From Alkalinema sp. FACHB-956 (GTDB lineage Bacteria; Cyanobacteriota; Cyanobacteriia; Leptolyngbyales; Leptolyngbyaceae): 64,000 bases of DNA. Position 1 is the first letter of the stretch; the number at the start of each line of letters is the position of its first letter. Shown in pieces: positions 4,759-57,652 of this stretch. Below the pieces are notes generated by a model. The model searched no databases and had not been told where the DNA came from. It worked only from the letters and a program-made list of their open reading frames with translations. Position numbers and translations under genes: made by a program. The stretch is taken from the NCBI RefSeq assembly GCF_014697025.1, contig NZ_JACJRC010000004.1:62001-126000 (forward strand), written 5' to 3'.

Positions 4759-5385
4759 CTAGCCTCGATCGGGAATATCGATCGGCAATGTCGATCGCAA
4801 AGCAGCCCAATCCTGGGGCGTGTTGCAATTCCAAAAATGATCGCCGATCACGTTAGGGATTTCTGTAACCGACTGTTGCTCTAACCCTTTTTGCTCTAAC
4901 CATTGTTGAAACGATCTGCCTCCCTGCTGAATAAAGGTTGCCAAATCTGCTTGCACCGTGGTTCGATAAAATCCGCCAAACGGTTCCCATCCCTTGGGGT
5001 GCCTCGCTAGATAGGCGATCGAGGGTTCGGGCAGCGTTGGTAAATCCTGCGCCCACCGTTGCATCTGGTCTGCATCCAATTGCGGCATATCACAGGCCAA
5101 CAACAACACCCATTCTGTTTTCACCATCGCCAACCCTTGCGCAAATCCGACTAGCGGGCCATAGGACTGCCGATCGACAACAAATTGACACGATTCTGGT
5201 AAAAACGATCGATAGCGATCGGGCCAAGCCGTTACCACATAAATCGCTGGACAACATTGGGCCGCGCGATCGCAAATCTGTTGCAGTAACGGTTTTCCTG
5301 CGATTTGCAACAATGCCTTATCCTGACCCATGCGGCGGCTTTGCCCACCGGCCAACACGATCGCGCTGAGAAACGAGTCATCCAT
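4759..5385 (-). CDS. mobA: Molybdenum cofactor guanylyltransferase MobA
   Basis: Transfers GMP from GTP to molybdopterin to form the bis-MGD type cofactor, in the cytoplasm. The N-terminal nucleotide-binding signature is clear (AIVLAGGQSRRMGQDKALL), followed by the GKPLL segment and the LLLACDMPQLD motif typical of MobA. The length of about 208 residues fits the family. I place the start at the ATG at 5385 because GAGG lies 7 nt upstream. An in-frame ATG at 5409 would overlap the stop codon of the upstream DUF167 gene as ATGA, so translational coupling is possible. It forms a two-gene minus-strand unit with that gene. The convergent neighbour is the hybrid kinase gene. Confidence 0.92.
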   Translation of the reverse strand: MDDSFLSAIVLAGGQSRRMGQDKALLQIAGKPLLQQICDRAAQCCPAIYVVTAWPDRYRSFLPESCQFVVDRQSYGPLVGFAQGLAMVKTEWVLLLACDMPQLDADQMQRWAQDLPTLPEPSIAYLARHPKGWEPFGGFYRTTVQADLATFIQQGGRSFQQWLEQKGLEQQSVTEIPNVIGDHFWNCNTPQDWAALRSTLPIDIPDRG

Positions 5386-5405
5386 CAGATCGCCTCGATC
5401 GAAGA

Positions 5406-5630
5406 TCATTCCAAGATTTCAATCAATTTCAACTTCGCCGCCCCACCGGACTTAATCGTGACTTGCGATTTCGGGACAGCAAACCGTTGCGCTAACAGTT
5501 TAATCAACTCCGCATTGGCCTTCCCATCCACCGGGGGAGATTTGAGATGCGCCAGCCAACTGCCATCGGCCTGTTGCTCCAGTTTCTGCTGCTTAGCATT
5601 GGGTTTCACCTTAATTTGCAAAATCACCAT
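5406..5630 (-). CDS. DUF167 (YggU-family) small protein
   Basis: A 74-residue protein of the DUF167/YggU family, whose biochemical role is unknown. Recognised by the IKVKPNAK start, the [17 protein letters not shown] core and the final [14 protein letters not shown] segment. The longer frame begins at a TTG (5666), so the internal ATG at 5630 is preferred. The stop overlaps the possible upstream start of mobA, which indicates co-transcription. Confidence 0.88.
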
Positions 5631-5784
5631 AGGTCGAACAATCAAGACAACGACCGGGAACTCCAACGCACATGCAGCGGAGCCCCCCAGCGGAGACGCC
5701 CCCGCCCGATTCAGGAACTTTCCCCGATCGGAAAAGGTCTATCATTCTTCGAAACAGTTGGACAACAGTGAACAGAGGAATGTC

Positions 5785-6279
5785 ATGCTTCTAAACGTTT
5801 TGCCCCAAGTGCCCCCCTTGCTCCGTTGCGCGATCGTCCCCCTAGGACTGGGTTTAAGTAGCCTGATCGCCTTCAGCAACCCAGCCCAAGCCCAAGCCAT
5901 GTTTGAAGACGCTACCCTCAACCCAGGCTTTAAGGCCACGGAACTGCGCGGACTGAGCGGCGGCAACACCCCCCTAAAATCCATCGCAGGCCGATCGGAA
6001 ACGGCCACCGGAAGCTGCCTGGGCTATACCGACTCGGATCCTGATCATACCCTGAAGCTCAATACCCCCTTCAGTTACCTGCGGCTCCAAGTCAACAGTA
6101 ATGTCGATACCACCATCGTTGTTCGAGGGACAGGCGGCACCTGGTGTAATGATGACTTCAACGATCGCAACGCAGGCATCGAAGGAGAGTGGCAACCGGG
6201 CGATTACCGCGTCTGGATCGGCAATCACAGCCGCAATCAAACCGCTCCCTACACCCTTAAAGTCACCACCCAGCGCTAA
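5785..6279 (+). CDS. Secreted protein with signal peptide, unknown function
   Basis: A 164-residue protein. The ATG at 5785 has AGAGGA six bases upstream, although the frame is open well beyond it. Residues 1-38 look like a signal peptide: hydrophobic core LGLGLSSLIAF and cleavage near AQAQA. The mature part holds two cysteines (GSCLGY and TWCNDDF) that may form a disulphide, and a C-terminal beta-rich segment (QPGDYRVWIGNH) resembling pre-peptidase-type beta-sandwich domains seen in cyanobacterial exported proteins. I do not recognise a named family. It is divergent from the DUF167-mobA unit. Confidence 0.75.
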   Translation: MLLNVLPQVPPLLRCAIVPLGLGLSSLIAFSNPAQAQAMFEDATLNPGFKATELRGLSGGNTPLKSIAGRSETATGSCLGYTDSDPDHTLKLNTPFSYLRLQVNSNVDTTIVVRGTGGTWCNDDFNDRNAGIEGEWQPGDYRVWIGNHSRNQTAPYTLKVTTQR

Positions 6280-6801
6280 CCGCCGGATTTCACGCCCCCT
6301 TCAAAAATCCCTCTACACCGTTCTAGCCGCCCCCAGAAAGGCTCAACGTCCCTTGTCTATCTCGATTGAGATTGAGGCAAGGTCGATCGTTGAGCCTTGC
6401 TTGTTTGCCGAGGAATTGCGACGGTAAACCACCCCTTGACGCAGCAGCCCTCTCGGTTGAATGCCTGCAATCCAACTAGATTCTTTTCAGGATCCGCCAT
6501 GTCCCTCAACACCCTCCAGGGGATAAGTCGGTAGCACGGTTGCCCTGTCTGCAAAAATTAAGTTAAATTAAGTTAACAATCACTCTCATGAAATCTGTCA
6601 TAGCTGTTTAGAGGTCGATCGCTAAGATTGCTGCTAGACGGCACCGAGTTTAAATCCTGACTGGAACGATCGAATTTTCATCGCTGAACCTTAATTTAAG
6701 AATTCACTAAAGAATATTCGTGATGTCCACTTTAACTCGGTATACCTATTCCCGCTGAGAGCGACGAGTCTGTTGTAGGCGTACTGAGAGGTTGCCCTTA
6801 T
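6280..6801. other. 522-bp intergenic region upstream of ftsH
   Basis: Contains a long stacked hairpin at 6338-6398 (listed separately), a TTAAGTTAA direct repeat near 6558-6577, and the AT-rich leader of the ftsH gene. No ORF here is credible. Confidence 0.5.
6338..6398. ncRNA. Candidate structured RNA element (three stacked helices)
   Basis: Three nested inverted repeats stack in one 61-nt element: aaggctcaacg (6338-6348) with cgttgagcctt (6388-6398), ccttg (6351-6355) with caagg (6378-6382), and atctc (6359-6363) with gagat (6368-6372) around a gatt loop. The 11-bp base helix is perfect. No uridine run follows on the plus strand, so a simple intrinsic terminator is not obvious. It could be a transcription stop for the secreted-protein gene, a repeat-family member or a regulatory RNA. 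Confidence 0.45.
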
Positions 6802-8691
6802 ATGAAACCGACCTGGAGAACAATTTTACTCTGGGCACTGCCCGCGATCGTAGTAGGGTTCTTCCTGTGGCAAAGTTCCCTGATGCCGATGGGTGGGAAC
6901 AATGCGGCCCGAAACACCGCAAGCACACGCATGACCTACGGACGCTTCCTGGAGTATCTGGATGCGAACCGGGTTAAGGCTGTTGATCTCTATGACAATG
7001 GCCGTACCGCGATCGTGGAAGCAGTGGATCCCGAATTAGATAATCGTATTCAACGGCTACGGGTGGATCTGCCTGGCAACTCTCCAGAGCTGATCGCTCG
7101 TCTGCGGGATTCTCATATTGCGTTAGATTCCCATCCTCCCCGCAATGATGGCGCATTGTGGAATATCTTAGGAAACCTGGTATTCCCCATCCTGCTGCTA
7201 TCGGGGCTGTTCTTCCTGTTCCGCCGTTCCAACAACATTCCCGGCGGCCCTGGCCAAGCCATGAACTTTGGCAAGTCCCGCGCCCGCTTCCAGATGGAAG
7301 CCAAGACCGGCGTCATGTTTGATGACGTAGCTGGGATCGAAGAAGCCAAGGAAGAACTGCAAGAAGTCGTTACCTTTTTGAAAAAACCTGAGAAGTTCAG
7401 CGCCGTGGGTGCTCGAATTCCCAAGGGTGTGCTGCTAGTAGGCCCCCCTGGAACCGGGAAAACCCTGCTTGCTAAGGCGATCGCCGGGGAAGCAGGCGTA
7501 CCGTTCTTCAGCATTTCCGGTTCAGAATTTGTGGAAATGTTCGTTGGGGTGGGTGCGTCCCGCGTCCGTGACCTGTTTAAGAAAGCCAAGGAAAATGCAC
7601 CTTGCATCATCTTTATTGATGAAATTGACGCAGTCGGTCGTCAGCGGGGTGCTGGCATCGGCGGCGGCAACGACGAACGGGAACAAACCCTGAACCAGTT
7701 GCTGACCGAAATGGATGGCTTTGAAGGCAACACTGGCATCATCGTGATTGCTGCGACGAACCGTCCCGACGTGCTGGATGCGGCTCTGCTGCGACCCGGT
7801 CGCTTCGATCGTCAAGTCACCGTGGACATTCCCGACATCAAGGGCCGTCTGGATGTGTTGCAGGTTCACGCCCGCAATAAGAAGATTGCCGATGATGTCT
7901 CCCTGGAAATGATCGCCCGACGCACCCCTGGGTTCTCCGGTGCCGATCTGTCTAACCTGTTGAACGAAGCCGCTATTCTCTGCGCTCGCCGCCGCAAGGA
8001 AGCGATTACGATTCAAGAGATTGACGACGCGGTCGATCGGGTTGTGGCGGGGATGGAAGGCACCCCCATGGTGGACAGCAAGAGCAAACGGCTCGTGGCC
8101 TACCATGAAGTCGGTCACGCGATCGTGGGCACGCTACTGAAGCACCACGACCCCATGCAGAAAGTCACGCTGATTCCCCGAGGCCAAGCCCGCGGTTTGA
8201 CCTGGTTCATGCCCTCTGAAGATTCGGGTTTGATTTCCCGAGCACAAATCATGGCGCGGATTACTGGGGCACTGGGTGGTCGCGCTGCGGAAGATGTCGT
8301 CTTTGGTCGGGCAGAAGTCACCACGGGTGCAGGCGGAGACTTGCAACAGGTCACTGGCATGGCGCGGCAAATGGTCACCCGCTACGGCATGTCCGATCTA
8401 GGCCCACTGTCCTTAGAAAGCCAGCAGGGTGAAGTCTTCCTCGGTCGGGACTGGATGACCCGTTCCGACTGTTCAGAAGAGATTCAAGCGCGGATCGATG
8501 CCCAAGTGCGCGAGATTGCGGAACACTGCTACGAAGATGCCCGTCGGATTATTCGCGAAAACCGGGAAGTCATCGATCGCTTGGTCGATCTATTGGTGGA
8601 ACGGGAAACGATCGACGGCGATGAGTTCCGCCAAATCGTTGCAGAGTATGCGGTTGTTCCTGAGAAAGAACAACTGAACGTGCGCATCTAA
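6802..8691 (+). CDS. ftsH: ATP-dependent zinc metalloprotease FtsH (FtsH2-type)
   Basis: A 629-residue membrane AAA protease. In cyanobacteria the FtsH2 type (Synechocystis slr0228) works with FtsH3 in thylakoids to remove photodamaged D1 during photosystem II repair. N-terminal membrane segment at about 7-24, a periplasmic/lumenal domain ([20 protein letters not shown]), a second membrane helix (about 120-138), then the AAA module with Walker A GPPGTGKT (214-221), Walker B IIFIDEID, the second region of homology ([20 protein letters not shown]), and zinc motif HEVGH (435-439). Assignment to FtsH2 rests on the close similarity of the N-terminal and lumenal sequence as I recall it. GAGAGG lies about 10 nt before the ATG. 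The gene is monocistronic, followed by two hairpins. Confidence 0.96.
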
Positions 8692-49360: not shown

Positions 49361-51013
49361 TCACTCCTGGGGCGGCAGATCGGAGGATTGTTTCGAGAGA
49401 TTCCACTTCCATTCGGGAATGAATTTTCCCCAGGATTGCTGGATCTGGAGGGTTTGCGTTTTCTGTGCCGCAATTTCTGCGAGAAACGATCGCACTTCAG
49501 GATTCTCTGCATCCATTTCCAATAACCGATCTAAAACCTTCTCCGCTTCGGCAATTTGGCTGCGCTCCATCAGGGTTTTGGCATGGCCCAGACCCGATCG
49601 CATCAGCCCTTCCCGTGCGCGAAAGGGATCGACATAGTAGGCCCGATCGAACAAAGTTAAGGCGTAGGCATAGGCTTTGGTATGCAAGAGGCAGTCAGCA
49701 AGGTCAAATAAACTGCTGAAATGGTTGGGGTTTTCGGCTAAAACGCGCTCATATAGCGAAATAGCCGCTGAAAGCTCTCCTTGGTAGCGTCGCTCGCGGC
49801 CTTCTTCGTAGACCGATTGGAGGTCGGGATTGAGGTTTTCTAATTCCCAAATTTCATCGCGAATACTGTGTTGACGCACCAGCCAGCGCCGCACCAGTTC
49901 GATCGTAATTTGGTAGGTGCCGCGCGAAACGGTTTCTGGGGAGTCTGCTTTTTTGATCCGCTTGAGGAATTTCCACTCGATCAAATTCTGCTGGGCCTTG
50001 TGCAGGCAGTCTGTCAGGGAGACGCCCCACTCTTCCAACAGTGCCAAAGGATCCCCCTCGCGGATGGTGGGATTCGCGTCCACACCTGTGGAACTTTTCT
50101 CGGCCACTTCTGCGGCGGCGGAGTACAGCACCCGTTCCGCAATGGGTAACCCATCCCAAAACCAGGCCAGTCCGCCCTCGCCCAGTTCGATCGCCCGATC
50201 GACGACGCGATAGACATCCTCCGCAGTCACGTCCCAGCGATCGTCCTGGCGGGCTTGGGTGAAGATGGCAAAGCAGATGACCTGGGTGAAATAGGGATGG
50301 CCCGCGCAGAGGTCAAAGATGGCGGTAATGGCGTCTTCGGCGTAGGTCAGAATGCCTTGGGCCGGTTCGGTGATCAGCTGCGTTGCGCTGGCCCGATCGA
50401 GGAGGCTGATTTCCTGCGCAGGTGCACTTTTAAACAAGTTAAGCAGCGTAGGCAAATCTTCTAAGCGCCGACCCACCACGGGAATGATGTGCAGAAACCG
50501 TTGTTGTTGCAGGGTTTCCGCCAAAAACGGGAAAAGATGATAGGCCGCCGCATCGGGCTGATAGTTCCCCAGGGTGTCGAATTCGTCTAACAGCAGCACC
50601 AGTTCTGGCCGATCGCAGCAGGTGGATAAATTTTCCAGAAAGCGATTAAAACTGCCGGGGTTTTCCTTAAGGTCTGCGATCGAGGGGACGATCGGCACGC
50701 GGTTGAGGCAGTCTAGGGATTGCAGCGTTTCCTTAGCTAAATCGTGCAGCACCTCCGGCAGGCATTTGTGGCTTTTGCCTTCTAGGGACAGGGCGATGAA
50801 GGTGAACGGTTCAGCTTTGAGCCAATGGGGAATCTGGGCCAGTACGGAAGACTTGCCAATGCGCCGTTGGCCGTGGAGCAGGATCACGGGCGCTTTTTGG
50901 CTGAGACTGTCGGCAATGAACTCCAACAACGGTTCCCGATCGAAAAAGCGATCGGGTTCATTGACCGGACGACCAATAATGTAAGGATTTCTGCGGCTGG
51001 CGACCATGATCAT
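49361..51013 (-). CDS. STAND-like AAA ATPase with TPR repeats
   Basis: A 550-residue protein. ATPase domain about 10-300 with Walker A LLHGQRRIGKSSVL (48-56), Walker B LVLLLDEFDTLG (about 138-149) and the downstream LDRASATQLITEP region. A winged-helix-like region (about 300-395) and C-terminal tetratricopeptide-like repeats (about 405-520, ELSAAISLYERVLAENPNH; AYALTLFDRAYYVDP). This is the usual layout of an nSTAND sensor where TPRs recognise a ligand; an effector domain is not visible. 178 bp downstream of a second ATPase gene. Confidence 0.85.
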   Translation of the reverse strand: MIMVASRRNPYIIGRPVNEPDRFFDREPLLEFIADSLSQKAPVILLHGQRRIGKSSVLAQIPHWLKAEPFTFIALSLEGKSHKCLPEVLHDLAKETLQSLDCLNRVPIVPSIADLKENPGSFNRFLENLSTCCDRPELVLLLDEFDTLGNYQPDAAAYHLFPFLAETLQQQRFLHIIPVVGRRLEDLPTLLNLFKSAPAQEISLLDRASATQLITEPAQGILTYAEDAITAIFDLCAGHPYFTQVICFAIFTQARQDDRWDVTAEDVYRVVDRAIELGEGGLAWFWDGLPIAERVLYSAAAEVAEKSSTGVDANPTIREGDPLALLEEWGVSLTDCLHKAQQNLIEWKFLKRIKKADSPETVSRGTYQITIELVRRWLVRQHSIRDEIWELENLNPDLQSVYEEGRERRYQGELSAAISLYERVLAENPNHFSSLFDLADCLLHTKAYAYALTLFDRAYYVDPFRAREGLMRSGLGHAKTLMERSQIAEAEKVLDRLLEMDAENPEVRSFLAEIAAQKTQTLQIQQSWGKFIPEWKWNLSKQSSDLPPQE

Positions 51014-51191
51014 TGGGGGTGTCTCCCTCCAGACTGAGCATCTGGGGCGCAGGGTTGCGGGGTAGACGGAAGGGGGTGGGGTAGATGGGGTTGGGCGGTA
51101 GGAGGGTTGGGGGAGATCAACCTGTGATCGACTTGAGAATACCCAAATTGTAGGCTGTGGTTCTTAGCGTGGCTAGGGGCAAGGGCGGAAT

Positions 51192-52475
51192 TTAGCCGGG
51201 AATCATCCCTTTGGGGAAGGCGGTGGAAATTTTTGCCAGCCATTCCAAAATGGTGGGCAATTCGTCTTTGTGCTGCCAGAGCCAGCGGATGGCAGTGGTG
51301 ACGGTTTCGGCTTGGCGATGGCTCATCAGGTTGAGAAAGACCCGTTGCCGATCGCGGAGCCAATCTTCGGAACTATTTTCCATCTCTTCTACGACCCACC
51401 ATTCCATCATCGACGACGCGAAGGCATATTTAAATTCTCCGGCGCGGGACTTGCGCGTCAGGATACCCTGCTCCACCAAGTTGGACAGTTCCCGTTCCTT
51501 TTGGCTAAAGACTAGTTCCAAGTCACCCAGGTCGTAGCGTTTTTTCTGCAACCGCCCTTTCAGGTGGACGAGGGCGATCAGCATCATCAGGGTTTGCTCC
51601 ACGTCGCTAGCCAAGTTCCAGAAGGCTTCGTAGAGGTGCTGGGTCATGGTGCGGAAGTCGGCGGCAAAGGCTTGGGGGTCGGGAACGTTGCCCGATCGTA
51701 GTTCCCGGTACAGCAGGTTCCCTGCCGATTGCAACAGGGCGGGGTGGCCATTGGTCATTTCCCGGATGCCGTCCCGCAGGGCTGGGGTCATGGGCAAGCC
51801 TCCCATCAGGGCCGCAACGTCGTGGGTGCTGAAGGGTTTGATGGGCAGAAAGAGATAGTGGTTATACCAGGGGGAACTGCCCGGTTGCAGCTTAGGGCCT
51901 AGTTCGTTCAGTCGCCGCAGGGAGGTGACGACCATGGAGAGGTATTGGCTTTCGCGGGCGTGGGAGCAGAGGTTACGGCAGTCGCTGACAAAGGTGGCGA
52001 TCGCGTTGTCGTCGTAACCGGCTTGGGGTTGCAGGGCGGCATCGTAGTCGTCTACCAGCAGCACGAGGTACTGGCCCTGGCGTCCGATTTCCCGCAGGAC
52101 TTGGCGCAGACCGTCTTTGGTGAGGTTGTCGGCTTGTAGGACGGTTTTAGCTTCGCTGACGATCGCGGCGGTTTCGGCGTAGTCCTGGATTTGGCTGAGG
52201 ATTTCTTTCCAGAAGCGGGGTTCGCTGAAGGGGGTTAATTCCAGGCAGCTAAACCGGACGATGACGGCGTTGGTGGGATCATAGCCACGAATTTGCCAAG
52301 CTTGGGGATCGGCTAGCAGGTTGAGGAAGGACGATTTGCCAATGCCGGGACTGCCCCAGACGGCGAGGTTGCTTTGACTCGTAATTTGGTCGAAGGCGGT
52401 GGCAATTTCGGCGGTGCGACCGATAAAACGATCGGGCGAGACGGGTTTACCCACGGTGAAGAGGTTGAGAGCCAT
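51192..52475 (-). CDS. AAA/STAND-like ATPase
   Basis: A 427-residue protein. Walker A VWGSPGIGKSSFL (41-49), Walker B LVLLVDDYDAAL (137-148), the arginine-type MVVTSLRRL, and a C-terminal winged-helix-like part (about 300-380, LVEQGILTRKSRAGEFKYAF). It ends without TPRs or membrane segments. Adjacent to but unlike the TPR ATPase in sequence, so not a recent duplicate. ATG at 52475. Role unknown. Confidence 0.83.
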   Translation of the reverse strand: MALNLFTVGKPVSPDRFIGRTAEIATAFDQITSQSNLAVWGSPGIGKSSFLNLLADPQAWQIRGYDPTNAVIVRFSCLELTPFSEPRFWKEILSQIQDYAETAAIVSEAKTVLQADNLTKDGLRQVLREIGRQGQYLVLLVDDYDAALQPQAGYDDNAIATFVSDCRNLCSHARESQYLSMVVTSLRRLNELGPKLQPGSSPWYNHYLFLPIKPFSTHDVAALMGGLPMTPALRDGIREMTNGHPALLQSAGNLLYRELRSGNVPDPQAFAADFRTMTQHLYEAFWNLASDVEQTLMMLIALVHLKGRLQKKRYDLGDLELVFSQKERELSNLVEQGILTRKSRAGEFKYAFASSMMEWWVVEEMENSSEDWLRDRQRVFLNLMSHRQAETVTTAIRWLWQHKDELPTILEWLAKISTAFPKGMIPG

Positions 52476-52560: not shown

Positions 52561-53505
52561 CTAGATGCTGATTTTTTGACCGTTGGAGGGGGCTTTTGGT
52601 TGCAGGGGGGGGATTCCGGCTCGATCGAGGATCTGGGGAATTAGGTCTTCGCGTTTGACGGCCATGAGGTGGACGCCTTGGCAGATCTGCTGGGCCATTT
52701 GAACTTGTTCGGCGGCGATTTGGATGCCTTCTTGCAGGGGGTCGGTGGCCTGTTCTAGGCGATCGATGATGGTGTCGGGAATGTTGACACCGGGAACGGC
52801 GCGGTTAATGAAGCGGGCGTTTTTGGCGGATTTCAGCAGGAAGATTCCGGCTAGGATTGGCTTTCCGGCGGGGCGACCGATTTCGGCCATGAATGTTTCC
52901 AGGCGATCGAAGTCGGTAATCAACTGACTTTGGAAGAACTGTGCGCCTGCGTTGACTTTGCGTTCGAACCGACGTTTTAGACCTGACCAACTGCCACACT
53001 GCGGATCCACGGCTGCTCCGACGCAGAGATCGGTTGCGCCATCGGTGAGGGCGTGATCTACCCAGTCAAAGCCGGTGTTGAGTTTGGTGATCAGTTGCAG
53101 TAGTCGCACGGATTCTAGGTCAAAGACGGGTTTGGCGTCGGGGTGGTCGCCTGCTTTGACGGGGTCGCCGGTGAGAGCGAGGACGTTGCGGATGCCGAGG
53201 GCGTGGGCACCCAGGATATCAGCTTGCAGGCCGATGGCGTTGCGATCGCGGCAGGCGACTTGGTAGACGGGTTCGATGCCTTGTTCCAGCAGCAGCAGGG
53301 CGGAGACCAGCGAGGCCATGCGCATGACGGCGCGGCTTCCGTCGGTGATGTTGACGGCGTGGACGCGACCTTGGAGCAGGCTGGCCATTTGGATCATGTG
53401 GGCGGGGTTGGTGCCCTTGGGGGGGGCGACTTCGGCGGTGATGAGGAAGTCACGGCGATCGATTGCTTGGCGGAATTGGGTTAAGGGCTGGCGGCTCTGC
53501 TGCAT
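52561..53505 (-). CDS. metF: Methylenetetrahydrofolate reductase
   Basis: A 314-residue FAD enzyme reducing 5,10-methylene-THF to 5-methyl-THF for methionine synthesis. LITAEVAPPKGTNPAHM, NITDGSRAVMRMA, NVLALTGDPVKAGDHPDA, GAAVDPQ and AQFFQSQLITD are typical. It stands alone between conflict-type genes. Confidence 0.93.
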   Translation of the reverse strand: MQQSRQPLTQFRQAIDRRDFLITAEVAPPKGTNPAHMIQMASLLQGRVHAVNITDGSRAVMRMASLVSALLLLEQGIEPVYQVACRDRNAIGLQADILGAHALGIRNVLALTGDPVKAGDHPDAKPVFDLESVRLLQLITKLNTGFDWVDHALTDGATDLCVGAAVDPQCGSWSGLKRRFERKVNAGAQFFQSQLITDFDRLETFMAEIGRPAGKPILAGIFLLKSAKNARFINRAVPGVNIPDTIIDRLEQATDPLQEGIQIAAEQVQMAQQICQGVHLMAVKREDLIPQILDRAGIPPLQPKAPSNGQKISI

Positions 53506-53700
53506 GGGTTTGGGCTGGGAAAAGCGTGAACTCCGAAAAATTACTGACCAGACAATTTCTACCAGACTAGGCGGGATGGCGCTGGTTAGGTAAGAATTGT
53601 GGCGAAATTTTACGAGAACTTTAACCTATCACGGTTGCTGATGGGTGAGGTGGGTGGGTATGGGAGAGCTGGAGGGGACTGTCGGGATCTGTACCTAAAA

Positions 53701-53766
53701 GTTGACAATTAGATCTCAAAAAGTTGACAATCTAGTTGAGTCTGGTTGACAAATAATTAGGAAAAC
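53701..53766 (+). promoter_or_regulatory. Three GTTGACAA boxes at exact 22-bp spacing
   Basis: gttgacaa occurs at 53701, 53723 and 53745, so the boxes are two helical turns apart and face the same side of the DNA. The last is 33 bp before the start codon. They may be an operator, and each also resembles a -35 hexamer (TTGACA). Confidence 0.5.
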
Positions 53767-53784: not shown

Positions 53785-54822
53785 GTGTCAAAAATTCTGA
53801 AGCGAAGTGAACAGATTCGTCAATTTATTTTGACCCATGTTGAAGAACATCCTCAGGATGTGGCTGTTTTAGCGGCGCAAGAATTTGGCGTGAGTCGGCA
53901 GGCCATCAATCGACATATTCAGGCTCTGGTCAAACAAAATGCAATTGTTGTTGAGGGGTCAACAAGAAGTAAGCGCTATTGTCTACATCCCTTGGTGGAA
54001 TGGACGAAAACTTACTCGCTGAAAAGTCCTTTGGAAGAAGATCGGGTATGGGATTCTGATATCAAGTCGCTCATTGCAGATTTACCTGATAACGTTCGGG
54101 CTATTTGGTATTACGGTTTTACTGAAATATTGAATAATGCGATCGATCACTCGCTAGGTCATCACGTTAGTATTACGGTGAAAAGAACTGCGATTAGCAC
54201 TGAAATATTTATTCATGATGATGGAGAAGGAATTTTCAAAAAAATTCAACGAGAATTGAATCTCTATGATGAACGTCATGCTGTTCTGGAATTGTCTAAA
54301 GGAAAATTGACGACTGACCCGAAACGCCATAGTGGCCAAGGGATCTTTTTCTCATCACGGATGTTTGATGCGTTTGATATCCTCTCGGGTACTGTGCATT
54401 TTTCCCATCAATTTCACAGGCCAGAGGATTGGATTGCTGAGTGGCAAATGCCGGGTTCTGGAACCTCCGTTTTTATGTGCTTGAGTAACAATACTTCGAG
54501 AACCTCTAAGCAAGTGTTCGATCAGTTTTCGTCGGGGGATGATTATGCTTTTACGAAAACGGTGGTGCCTGTGCGGTTAGCGCAGTACGGTGATGAAATG
54601 TTGGTATCGCGCTCTCAAGCGAAACGCCTATTGGCCAGGGTGGATAAGTTTAAAGTTGTGATTTTTGATTTTGCTGGGGTGGAAGCGATCGGGCAAGCCT
54701 TTGCAGATGAAATTTTTCGGGTGTTTAAGCAACAGCATTCTGAGATTGAAATGATGTCCGTAAATGGGAATGAAGAGGTGAATAAGATGATTCGTCGGGC
54801 GCAGAGTAGTTTGTCGGATTAA
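53785..54822 (+). CDS. Fused HTH - GHKL ATPase - STAS-like (DUF4325) switch protein
   Basis: A 345-residue protein with three modules: a winged-helix DNA-binding domain (about 1-70, EFGVSRQAINRHIQALVK), a GHKL ATPase domain (about 105-235) with N-box EILNNAIDHS (114-123), G1 DDGEGIF (145-151) and G2 HSGQGIFFSS (182-191), and a STAS-like DUF4325 domain (about 255-340, IFDFAGVEAIGQAFADEIF). Anti-sigma kinases and STAS antagonists are normally separate partner-switch proteins; here they are joined to a DNA-binding domain. Start GTG at 53785 because no upstream ATG is in frame. Convergent with the glycine-zipper ATPase gene, 25 bp away. Confidence 0.88.
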   Translation: MSKILKRSEQIRQFILTHVEEHPQDVAVLAAQEFGVSRQAINRHIQALVKQNAIVVEGSTRSKRYCLHPLVEWTKTYSLKSPLEEDRVWDSDIKSLIADLPDNVRAIWYYGFTEILNNAIDHSLGHHVSITVKRTAISTEIFIHDDGEGIFKKIQRELNLYDERHAVLELSKGKLTTDPKRHSGQGIFFSSRMFDAFDILSGTVHFSHQFHRPEDWIAEWQMPGSGTSVFMCLSNNTSRTSKQVFDQFSSGDDYAFTKTVVPVRLAQYGDEMLVSRSQAKRLLARVDKFKVVIFDFAGVEAIGQAFADEIFRVFKQQHSEIEMMSVNGNEEVNKMIRRAQSSLSD

Positions 54823-54847: not shown

Positions 54848-57652
54848 CTAGGCGAGTTGAGTTTGGGCGACCCAGGTGCGCATGAGTTCGACGCGGTATT
54901 GGTAGCGATCGTCGGGGTTGAGTTGGATGATGTCGTGGTCTAGGAGGAGTTTGAGGCCGATCGTGAGGTGCTGAGGGTCGAGGTCTAAAGCGGTTTGGAG
55001 TTGGGTTGCGGTGGCGGGGTCGTGGGTGAGGTGGCGGAGGATGGCAAGTTGGGTTGCGGCGTCGGTTTCTTGGGCTTGTTCCCAGATGGCGCGGAAGTAG
55101 GCGCTGCCTTCCTGGAAGAAGTGGGGATGGTTGATGACCTCGTAAACATCATCTTCCGTGAAGAGGGGTTCAATTTCTTGGTTTTGCTCGAAGCGTAGTT
55201 GGTTGAAGCGGGATACGAGGTTTTGGCAGATCAGTTGGATCAGGTAGGGTTGGCCGCCGCTGAGGTGGTAGATCTGGTCTACGGCTTCGGGGGTGTAGTC
55301 GATCGGGAAGTCGTCGTTGGGGTTGGTGATGAGTTTGCGGGCGGCGGCGGGGCTGAGGAAGCTGACGGGGATTTTGCGGACGCTGCCGAAGAGGGGGTTC
55401 CAGTAGTCTTGGGTCATTTCCTGGAGGGTGTGGAGTCCGGCGAAGGCGAAGATGATCCAGGGGAAGTCCATGAGGATGCCGCGCCAATGGCCGATGAGGC
55501 TGGTGTCGAAGCGCTGTTCGCGGATGCCGGTTTCGATCAGTTCAAATTCGTCGATCGCGATGATGAAGCGATCTTTTTGACGATATTGGTCGAGTTTTTT
55601 GAGCCAACGACGGAAGTCTTTTTCGGGGGTCGGGAAGTCGGTGGGTTGGGGTTCGGGGAGGTGGGGTTGGATGTGGGTGGGGAGGTCGTCGTAGAGGGTT
55701 TGGGCGAGGGCGAGGATGAGGTCGGCGGTGGTTTGGAGGGTGCCGAGGGTTTGGATGTTGAAGTTGATGATGTGGGTGTGTGGGTCGAAGCGTCCGGGGA
55801 GGTTGCGGAGGATGGAGGTTTTGCCCATGCGGCGGTGGCCGTAGATGACGACGGATTCGAGTTGGCCGGGTTTGTTCCAGAGTTCTTCGAGGGTGGTGAG
55901 GATGTCTTCGCGTCCGACGAAGAGGCTGCCGGTGACGGGGGGGCCGACGACGTAGGGGTTGGCGACGGGTTCCAGGAGGGGGGCGTTGGCGAGTTCACCG
56001 CCGACTTTGGTGATGATGGTTTGCCATTGGTCGATGATGCGGAGGAGGAGTTTTTGTTCGGGGTAGTTGGGGTGGATGGTTTGGGTGACGGTGGTTTTGA
56101 GGGTTTCGAGTTGGTTGTTGGCGTTGAGGATGGCGTTGCGTTGGGTGACTTTGCTGGAGAGGATGTTGGCGCGGTGGACTTCTTGGCTGAGGGTGCTGAG
56201 GGTGTGCAGGGCTTGGATGACGGTGGGACGGAGGAAGGTGTCGGTGGGGTTGAGCCAGGTGAGGTGCTGGGGAAGGTGCTGGGGAGCGGTGGCGATGTCG
56301 GCAGAGGTTTGGAATTTGAGGTAAGCCAGGAAGGTTTGAAAGGAGGCGGAAACTTCGCTGCCGTGGGGATAGGTGGTGAGTTCTGTAAAGTTGGGTGAGT
56401 TTTCGAGATGGGAGATGGGGCTTTGGTTGTCGTCAAATAGGAGGTGATGGAAAAGCTGAATCAGATCACGTAATGGGCTTTGGGGAATTTTTCTGAGGGG
56501 ATAGGTGAGGGAGTACGGTAGGGTTCTAAAAAATCCTGCTTTGCCTTCGTGGTTGATGGGAACGCCTGCTAACTCACTCAATAAGCTTTGTTTAACGGTC
56601 ACGAAGTCGCGTTGTTCTTGCCGATCGATGGGGAATGAAACATAGCATTCCAAAAACTCTGGTTTGAGCCAGTTATAGAGGGTTTGTAAAGGATGCTGAG
56701 TTTGGTGCAGGTGTCGATAAATGGCATTATGAACAGCCCAGGCTTGAAAGGGATTGCTGAGGACTTGGGTACAAAGCTGGAGTCCTTGTTCTGGATCAGT
56801 GTTCAGTTGAGTGAAGAGATAACGACTGCTGCCAGGGAGAGGAAGGACGTTTAGTTCATCAGTGATGAGAGGATGGCGTTTCCTACGCTGCCAGGGATTG
56901 TATACCCTAATCAGATGTATCAACCAAAAAGGTACCCGTAACGCACCCACGCCTCCCGCCACGCCTCCCGCCACGCCGACCGCCACGCCTCCCGCCACGC
57001 CGACCGCCACGCCTCCCGCCACGCCGACCGCCACGCCGACCGCCACGCCTCCCGCCACGCCGACCGCCACGCCTCCCGCCACGCCGAACGCCACGCCGAC
57101 CGCCACGCCTCCCGCCACGCCTCCCGCCACGCCGACCGCCACGCCTCCCGCCACGCCGAACGCCACGCCGAACGCCACGCCTCCCGCCACGCTAACGGCT
57201 AATCTGCTAAGCATGAATGCTAAGTTCGATGTAAACCAATTTATCCAGTAAATAAGTGTGAATTTTTGAGAACGTATATCAATTAATTTGCAAATTCTTT
57301 CGAAATCTTCTTTACTCAAATTTCTGGGAGTTGAACGTGGGCAAGACCAATAGACAGAAGGACTGAATAATTCTTGAAAAAAATTACCTAGTAATATTAT
57401 TAAAAACGAAACTAAAGTTGTAGTAATTAATGCTGTAAGCAATAGATTTTTATAGGTAGGTAAACGGATATCTGCAATAAATTTTTTCCAGCCACCTTCA
57501 CTTTTGTAAATCTCTGGATCGGCCTGATACAAATAACACTTCAACGCCGTCGGACGGAAAAACACCCAATACAACACCAACCAATAATGCTTTGGGTTCA
57601 GGGGGTTGAGACATTGCGGCAGTTCGCCATCGTAGGTGGGGAAGGTGGGCAT
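54848..57652 (-). CDS. STAND-type ATPase with glycine-zipper repeat membrane domain
   Basis: A 934-residue protein. N-terminal region with hydrophobic helices (about 22-33, 68-90, 132-155), then about 20 tandem [G/V/F]GVA tetrapeptides (157-236) giving a Gly every four residues, a basic stop segment (RQRRKRHPL-like, PWQRRKRHP at 253-261), a helical region (about 280-560) and the sequence NPYVVGPPVTGSLFVGRED (565-583) that opens cyanobacterial STAND ATPases. Walker A VVIYGHRRMGKTS (601-613), Walker B FIIAIDEFELIE (696-707), and a C-terminal winged-helix-like end. The repeats come from a 12-bp minisatellite. No TPR or WD repeats follow, so what it senses is unclear. The domain order suggests a membrane pore or anchor controlled by nucleotide binding; that is inference. 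Confidence 0.85.
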   Translation of the reverse strand: MPTFPTYDGELPQCLNPLNPKHYWLVLYWVFFRPTALKCYLYQADPEIYKSEGGWKKFIADIRLPTYKNLLLTALITTTLVSFLIILLGNFFQELFSPSVYWSCPRSTPRNLSKEDFERICKLIDIRSQKFTLIYWINWFTSNLAFMLSRLAVSVAGGVAFGVAFGVAGGVAVGVAGGVAGGVAVGVAFGVAGGVAVGVAGGVAVGVAVGVAGGVAVGVAGGVAVGVAGGVAGGVGALRVPFWLIHLIRVYNPWQRRKRHPLITDELNVLPLPGSSRYLFTQLNTDPEQGLQLCTQVLSNPFQAWAVHNAIYRHLHQTQHPLQTLYNWLKPEFLECYVSFPIDRQEQRDFVTVKQSLLSELAGVPINHEGKAGFFRTLPYSLTYPLRKIPQSPLRDLIQLFHHLLFDDNQSPISHLENSPNFTELTTYPHGSEVSASFQTFLAYLKFQTSADIATAPQHLPQHLTWLNPTDTFLRPTVIQALHTLSTLSQEVHRANILSSKVTQRNAILNANNQLETLKTTVTQTIHPNYPEQKLLLRIIDQWQTIITKVGGELANAPLLEPVANPYVVGPPVTGSLFVGREDILTTLEELWNKPGQLESVVIYGHRRMGKTSILRNLPGRFDPHTHIINFNIQTLGTLQTTADLILALAQTLYDDLPTHIQPHLPEPQPTDFPTPEKDFRRWLKKLDQYRQKDRFIIAIDEFELIETGIREQRFDTSLIGHWRGILMDFPWIIFAFAGLHTLQEMTQDYWNPLFGSVRKIPVSFLSPAAARKLITNPNDDFPIDYTPEAVDQIYHLSGGQPYLIQLICQNLVSRFNQLRFEQNQEIEPLFTEDDVYEVINHPHFFQEGSAYFRAIWEQAQETDAATQLAILRHLTHDPATATQLQTALDLDPQHLTIGLKLLLDHDIIQLNPDDRYQYRVELMRTWVAQTQLA
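56945..57184. repeat. 12-bp minisatellite encoding [G/V/F]GVA
   Basis: About 20 tandem 12-bp units, in three versions on the plus strand (gccacgcctccc, gccacgccgacc, gccacgccgaac), encode GGVA, VGVA and FGVA on the minus strand. Only the first codon of each unit varies. Length change by slippage would keep the frame. Confidence 0.95.

Follow-up and report, generated by a model that had tools for sequence, protein, structure and literature searches.

A single-chain winged helix, GHKL ATPase and DUF4325 protein with a putative operator of tandem direct repeats before its own gene

We found that one gene in the window (the whole stretch of DNA analysed, 64,000 nucleotides) encodes a single chain that joins a winged helix, a GHKL ATPase and a DUF4325 STAS-like domain, and that an operator-like array of direct repeats precedes this gene and most of its relatives. 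On balance we favour, with a probability of roughly 55%, a one-chain, self-regulating switch that would repress its own gene and be gated by ATP or a ligand, not by phosphorylation. Autoregulation is the best-supported output, judging from the sequences.

The gene starts with GTG and covers 53785..54822 on the + strand, encoding 345 aa. The winged helix-turn-helix domain occupies residues 1-68 (53785..53988, +), with a recognition helix at residues about 38-50 (53896-53934, +), and is followed by a SpoIIAB/RsbW-like GHKL domain at residues 71-240 (53995..54504, +) that contains the N box (residues 114-123; 54124-54153, +), the G1 box (145-150; 54217-54234, +) and the G2 box (184-187; 54334-54345, +). 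The STAS-like domain forms the C-terminus (residues about 255-345; 54547..54819, +). In Pfam searches only DUF4325 (PF14213) passed its curated cut-off (E 2.9e-13, 49.8 bits against 23, core residues 278-329), and the GHKL families HATPase_c_2 (24.1 bits against 27.4) and HATPase_c (23.8 against 26.4) and the winged-helix family MarR_2 (22.9 against 27, residues 15-64) fell just under theirs. The domain searches proposed in the original prediction of this fusion therefore bore out DUF4325 and left the other two families just short; because of these scores, the GHKL and winged-helix assignments were made from structure and conservation.

The full-length AlphaFold2 model (15 sequences) reached a pLDDT of 85.6 and a pTM of 0.81, and its structure matches agreed with the fusion of three domains in one chain. 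Residues about 69-238 were closest to the GHKL folds of SpoIIAB (Z 13.2, 127 residues, 2.5 A) and RsbW (Z 12.3); the window protein thus has the fold and the N, G1 and G2 boxes of these anti-sigma kinases. For residues about 5-69 the matches were Zalpha domains and two regulators of the MarR type, AdcR and ZitR (Z 8.2-8.7). Modelling the last 103 residues alone gave a pLDDT of 85.0 and a match list headed by STAS domains (SLC26A11, RsbS and RsfB at Z 7.7, SpoIIAA at Z 7.1), all below Z 8 and weak evidence if taken alone. Foldseek returned no match for this domain at 1e-3, no VapS or CapS entry was among the 50 structure matches listed for the domain, and the PDB sequence search yielded no relative for it or for the whole protein.

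Matches at E ≤0.001 were detected in 28 of the 388 genomes of the class, own genome included, some of them nearly full-length at 45-73% identity and others reduced to short remnants or interrupted by stops. Searching a collection of 84,980 species gave at least 587 candidate stretches with at least 544 relatives, of which the best 80 were kept, 74 of them with record titles naming metagenome-assembled genomes. Among these best 80 were Cyanobacteriota, Pseudomonadota, Acidobacteriota, Planctomycetota, Chloroflexota and others, so the survey of the architecture in other genomes placed relatives in many phyla. On a tree of 79 rows the phylum labels were clustered yet needed 21 changes against a minimum of 11, which is compatible with transfer between phyla but no proof of it. 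Our searches of the open PubMed Central literature gave no description of a one-chain wHTH-GHKL-DUF4325 family, and likewise no known family combining this exact architecture with an assigned function; PMC5982333 tabulates, for a mycorrhizal fungus, a DUF4325 'ATPase' of bacterial origin.

Upstream of the window gene, the repeats on which the original prediction had drawn proved real: an operator-like array at 53697..53753 (+) holds three direct repeats, with GTTGACAA at 53701, 53723 and 53745 and a period of 22 bp. Similar repeats recur upstream of relatives with a period of 21-22 bp, and 206 sites from the family loci gave the non-palindromic consensus AAGGTTGACAAT, the TTKACA portion of which was set by the search itself. 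In 79/92 loci the 200 bp upstream contain two or more TTKACA sites spaced by 20-23 bp. Removing L024, a duplicate of L060, left 78/91 distinct loci (77/90 aligned, plus L133, which has no stop in its locus and is absent from the alignment; L022, which has a stop, was counted as a gapped row), and clustering at 70% identity left 51/61. Shuffled upstream regions reached the same threshold in 0.01% of cases. These counts exclude L002, L003, L015, L017 and L019 as duplicates of counted loci, L117 because its N-terminus is cut by a contig end, and eight partial or remote loci (L006, L007, L009, L010, L027, L029, L031 and L032). Five of those eight carry the array and three (L006, L007 and L032) do not; L006, in genome G023, encodes a relative with GHKL and DUF4325 domains and no winged helix, which is a single case. 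Several of the 13/91 loci lacking a strict array have, by eye, the variants TTGTCAA, TTGACGA or TTTCCAA.

Spacing within the arrays was 22 bp in 74 and 21 bp in 53 of the 129 intervals measured, either value accounting for 127/129, which would place the repeats on one face of the DNA. In the family loci 7-86 bp separate the last repeat from the start codon. MarR-type winged-helix autorepressors resemble the window family in fold (AdcR and ZitR, Z 8.2-8.4) and in having sites at their own promoters, but they have neither an ATPase nor a STAS domain, and their sites are usually palindromic, whereas those of the window family are direct repeats.

The repeats also contain -35-like hexamers, a point that counts against reading them as an operator. 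In the window, TTGACA of repeat 1 and GACAAT of repeat 2, separated by 18 nt, make up a sigma-70-like promoter at 53702..53731 (+) with 10/12 matches, and since the period is 21-22 bp the spacer between such hexamers is always 17-18 bp. The array could on these grounds be a stack of sigma-70 promoter elements, each TTGACA pairing with xACAAT of the next repeat 17-18 bp on, instead of an operator. We regard this as very improbable: the hexamer is preceded by a preference for AAGG, which to our knowledge is no known promoter element, the array holds up to 6 copies of the repeat, the same array occurs in several phyla, and only 1 of the 1045 other ORFs in the family loci has one, in a region whose sites are shared with the family gene. 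Two promoter-like sites in the region compare with 2.3 expected in shuffles, a number not significant by itself.

Genome-wide searches linked the array to the family gene. Among 32 cyanobacterial genomes the exact two-site pattern was present in 14/18 carriers and 0/14 non-carriers, and it was found in 23/30 genomes holding other family loci. By coordinates, 51 of the 52 exact matches (37 genomes) stand at the family gene's own promoter. The remaining one, at 20813 of contig C3 in the own genome, is a 19-bp tandem repeat; it was considered as a second target and rejected, as no evident + strand gene follows it by eye. This repeat has five units (L137, 1440-1530), the last of which contain GTTGACAA. 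A reversed-pattern control gave 5 matches in the same 62 genomes, and the chance rate is therefore above zero. As far as searched, and at the stringency used, strong arrays mark the family gene alone.

This specificity bears on whether the protein works in trans, with an array that is only autoregulatory and with working targets that are single or degenerate sites elsewhere, or with a GHKL/STAS part that binds a second protein, for instance a sigma factor or CapS-like substrate. In its GHKL domain the protein most resembles the anti-sigma kinases, whose targets are other proteins, and pattern search does not separate single sites from chance. In the own genome, with ≤3 mismatches allowed, the reversed pattern matched 4 times and the true pattern 12 times; 2 of the 12 lie at the own promoter and 3 within a single 132-bp repeated unit. 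Weak further sites are thus possible. A gene whose own promoter is the sole strong site also needs a further output, which counts against the autoregulatory reading. Against action in trans, mismatch-tolerant searches, which covered the 22-bp spacing only, returned at ≤1 mismatch in 9 carrier genomes the own promoters and one site in a coding ORF (the extra one-mismatch match, in G145, lies inside a 424-aa ORF), and at ≤3 mismatches in 17 genomes 103 matches, 12 of them at own promoters, compared with 76 for the reversed pattern. Furthermore, profile searches at E 1e-3 identified no other DUF4325 and no VapS-, VapK- or GHKL-like partner ORF in 101 loci. The VapS and VapK profiles do not detect even the family's own members, however, and a distant CapS could escape these searches. 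We hold action in trans to be possible but doubtful.

Within the winged helix, the positions most associated with TTG versus TTT operators were 42 and 43, in the recognition helix, with Asn42 present in 0/9 TTT-type and 43/60 TTG-type sequences (uncorrected Fisher p 5.5e-5 for the best of 69 positions). Covariation of helix and operator was also considered on the tree, where only 2 independent pairs were supported, leaving the association unconfirmed.

The ATP site is conserved throughout the family. In 90 distinct sequences the residues of the N, G1 and G2 boxes were invariant or nearly so (Glu114, Asn118, His122, Asp145, Gly147, Gly149, Gly184 and Gly186, except for one Glu114 and one gapped row), in agreement with the earlier description of these boxes as intact. 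The STAS-like domain differs at the position where a phosphate would be accepted. According to PMC13373217 (EMBO J 2026), Ser48 is the phosphorylation site of VapS and is equivalent to Ser54 of CapS. Gln304 of the window protein (codon 54694..54696, +) aligns with this Ser48 in an ungapped motif alignment, and residue 304 is Q in 85, P in 2, H in 1 and R in 1 of 89 family sequences and never S or T, so that the conserved acceptor serine of the CapS STAS domain is absent at the aligned position; the next residue is A in 86, S in 2 and G in 1. The equivalence of Gln304 and Ser48 rests on this short alignment together with shared PF14213 membership, the whole-family profile giving low probabilities against VapS and VapK (3.4% and 10.5%).

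The free-standing cyanobacterial DUF4325 proteins compared keep the serine. A profile of seven such proteins (~115 aa) matched Escherichia VapS 9z7o at E 1.6e-29, and all seven have serine at position 48 (numbering of the first). Four of the ten listed loci of this kind (L154, L157, L159 and L162) have the order ~305 aa, DUF4325/VapS of ~115 aa, ~210 aa; the ~305-aa protein gave a weak HATPase_c match in the two tested, and the ~210-aa protein looked VapC-like by eye and had no Pfam match in the two tested. A tblastn search with cyanobacterial VapK against plasmids found 13 distant records.

Phosphorylation at the residue-304 position is thus unlikely from the alignment. The original prediction had placed a partner switch within the chain, and such a switch, if driven by phosphorylation, does not agree with a Gln at the VapS Ser48 position; its general direction was right, and the phosphorylation logic probably was not. 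With the acceptor serine gone, gating would depend on conformation or nucleotide state and not on phosphorylation of that STAS site, and an intact ATP site beside a STAS domain lacking an acceptor points to nucleotide- or ligand-gated docking. The kinase might still phosphorylate its own chain at another Ser or Thr, for example Ser275 or Ser277, and so release the DNA, as phosphorylation releases CapS (PMC13373217). Like the ATP boxes, both serines are invariant (89/89 rows having those columns), but in the model they are located at the helix before the central strand, off the separate helix that begins at residue 304, and the acceptor position itself is Gln in 85/89 and otherwise P, H or R. 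Self-phosphorylation of this kind appears unlikely to us.

Considering its domains, we read the family, by analogy, as a one-chain relative of CapK with CapS and of VapKSC, which use separate kinase and STAS proteins. PMC13373217 describes CapK as HTH-STAS-GHKL and CapS as STAS-wHTH, with capS following each of the 443 capK genes. CapS combines its wHTH with a STAS domain; it represses the promoter of its own gene and leaves the DNA on phosphorylation, when the STAS dimer is broken. In both CapK with CapS and the window family a GHKL kinase-type domain, a STAS domain and a wHTH would act together, and HTH, STAS and GHKL domains also co-occur in CapK itself; repression of the own promoter has as its counterpart here the operator-like array only. 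The known logic, which the original prediction had described as acting on a sigma factor, is consequently broader, since in CapK with CapS a winged-helix repressor is already linked to a GHKL kinase and STAS protein.

Several differences separate these systems (PMC13373217). CapK and CapS are two proteins with the orders given above, whereas the window family is one chain with the order wHTH-GHKL-STAS; CapS conserves Ser54 and binds palindromic TTAA sites, whereas the window family has Gln and direct repeats. An immune operon lies downstream in 348/443 cases, unlike the window family, for which no conserved neighbour was found, and capS directly follows capK, whereas the next gene in the window is on the other strand and has an AAA_16 match. 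VapKSC shares the DUF4325 family, the free-standing cyanobacterial proteins matching PF14213, but it is a three-gene operon of kinase, STAS antitoxin and VapC, and VapS keeps Ser48, serves as a free antitoxin of the VapC nuclease and has no DNA-binding domain. SpoIIAB/SpoIIAA and RsbW/RsbV, of which the kinases are the closest in GHKL fold and SpoIIAA is among the STAS matches, are separate proteins that act on a sigma factor, with no DNA-binding domain and with a phosphorylatable serine.

Genomic context gave no partner for the gene. The 1232 ORFs of 101 loci, family members among them, contained no neighbour cluster shared by more than 4 loci; of the most recurrent sets (4 loci), one includes redundant loci and the other is an ABC-transporter-like ATPase. 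The next downstream ORF was co-directional in 35/75 loci (12 of the 35 within 60 bp) and convergent in 40/75, and a role as regulator of a neighbouring operon found no support in this mixed orientation and the lack of a recurrent neighbour. In a count without a matched control, the 110 adjacent proteins matched 100 Pfam families of at most 2 members; 35 PADLOC families were also recognised, the 25 listed having a single member each. In the window, the next gene (54848-57652, -) encodes a 934-aa protein with an AAA_16 domain and a long GVAVGVAGG-type repeat stretch, and beyond the MTHFR gene (52561-53505) lie two further AAA_16 proteins (49361-52475, -), one with TPR repeats; PADLOC matches to PDC-S01 were weak. 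When relatives' loci were compared for an empty site, metF was common and no copy of the window gene was observed next to it; because the flanks around metF differ, no insertion boundary was drawn.

Signs of mobility were confined to a few loci. A phage or plasmid origin was considered and set aside, as searches at 1e-5 across 50,697 phage records and 72,556 plasmid records came back empty; on one viral contig (L012) the family gene, with its repeats, lies about 1.7 kb from a Phage_integrase ORF. The copy in a Woeseiaceae genome (L094) looks by its sequence like an integron cassette: near-identical attC-like sites flank it on both sides and further copies of these sites are nearby. The surrounding region (4800-7700) looks like a cassette array with several near-identical attC-like sites and, by eye, toxin-antitoxin-like neighbour ORFs. 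In scoring against the attC consensus, a threshold of ≥14 was reached upstream of 5/92 loci and downstream of 0/92, the downstream site of L094 scoring 13, with 0.4 expected by chance over all flanks. L014, L016 and L059 have an attC-like site upstream only, the match at L012 overlaps its own repeats and is probably false, and the flanks of the window gene gave no candidate at the thresholds used. Stricter scorings gave 1 in one case and 3 upstream plus 1 downstream in the other. Integron integrases were over the cut-off in 6 of the 15 genomes searched, including the own genome (on another contig) and those of L016 and L094, and not that of L014. Carriage on integrons as a general rule thus found no support.

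More tentatively, the family might be a one-gene mobile regulatory unit, in which a sensor ATPase, a phospho-dead STAS clamp and a repressor are fused and which moves between phyla with its own portable operator of tandem 21-22 bp repeats, controls only itself and becomes, at a raised level, an effector induced by damage or phage, with no partner gene and no phosphorylation; we would think this rather doubtful as a whole.

In the self-regulating switch that we favour, the winged helix would bind the tandem direct repeats AAGGTTGACAAT, which overlap promoter-like hexamers just before the gene, and the bound protein would repress its own gene; given this overlap and the distance of 7-86 bp from the start codon, repression by occlusion would be the simplest outcome. 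The GHKL and C-terminal STAS domains, of the same chain or of different chains, would work as a unit; the ATP or ligand state of this unit would control how the protein oligomerises and, through this, its cooperative binding to the array. On a signal the protein would leave the array and its own synthesis would rise. CapS would be the precedent, except that here the GHKL-STAS pair would relay the trigger with the acceptor site left unphosphorylated. We infer DNA binding, repression rather than activation, use of ATP and the effect of a raised protein level, as well as DNA damage as the signal, the last by analogy with CapK. CapK is a kinase activated by ssDNA, and its predicted ssDNA groove lies between its STAS and GHKL domains (PMC13373217), which would make ssDNA a reasonable first candidate signal.

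Regulatory GHKL ATPases usually act via a second protein, whereas here the ATPase and the DNA-binding domain are in one chain. The proposal that the attached winged helix would be the output gains substance from the operator-like array at the gene's own promoter. With this array, what was an odd domain combination becomes an autoregulatory circuit that can be tested, its operator being so conserved that the likely target can be read from the sequence. The family may thus offer an uncomplicated setting, one protein and one promoter, in which to study the control of DNA binding by a GHKL-STAS pair. It may also give a clue to the HTH of CapK, for which PMC13373217 leaves the role unexplained: direct repeats may likewise be present before capK.
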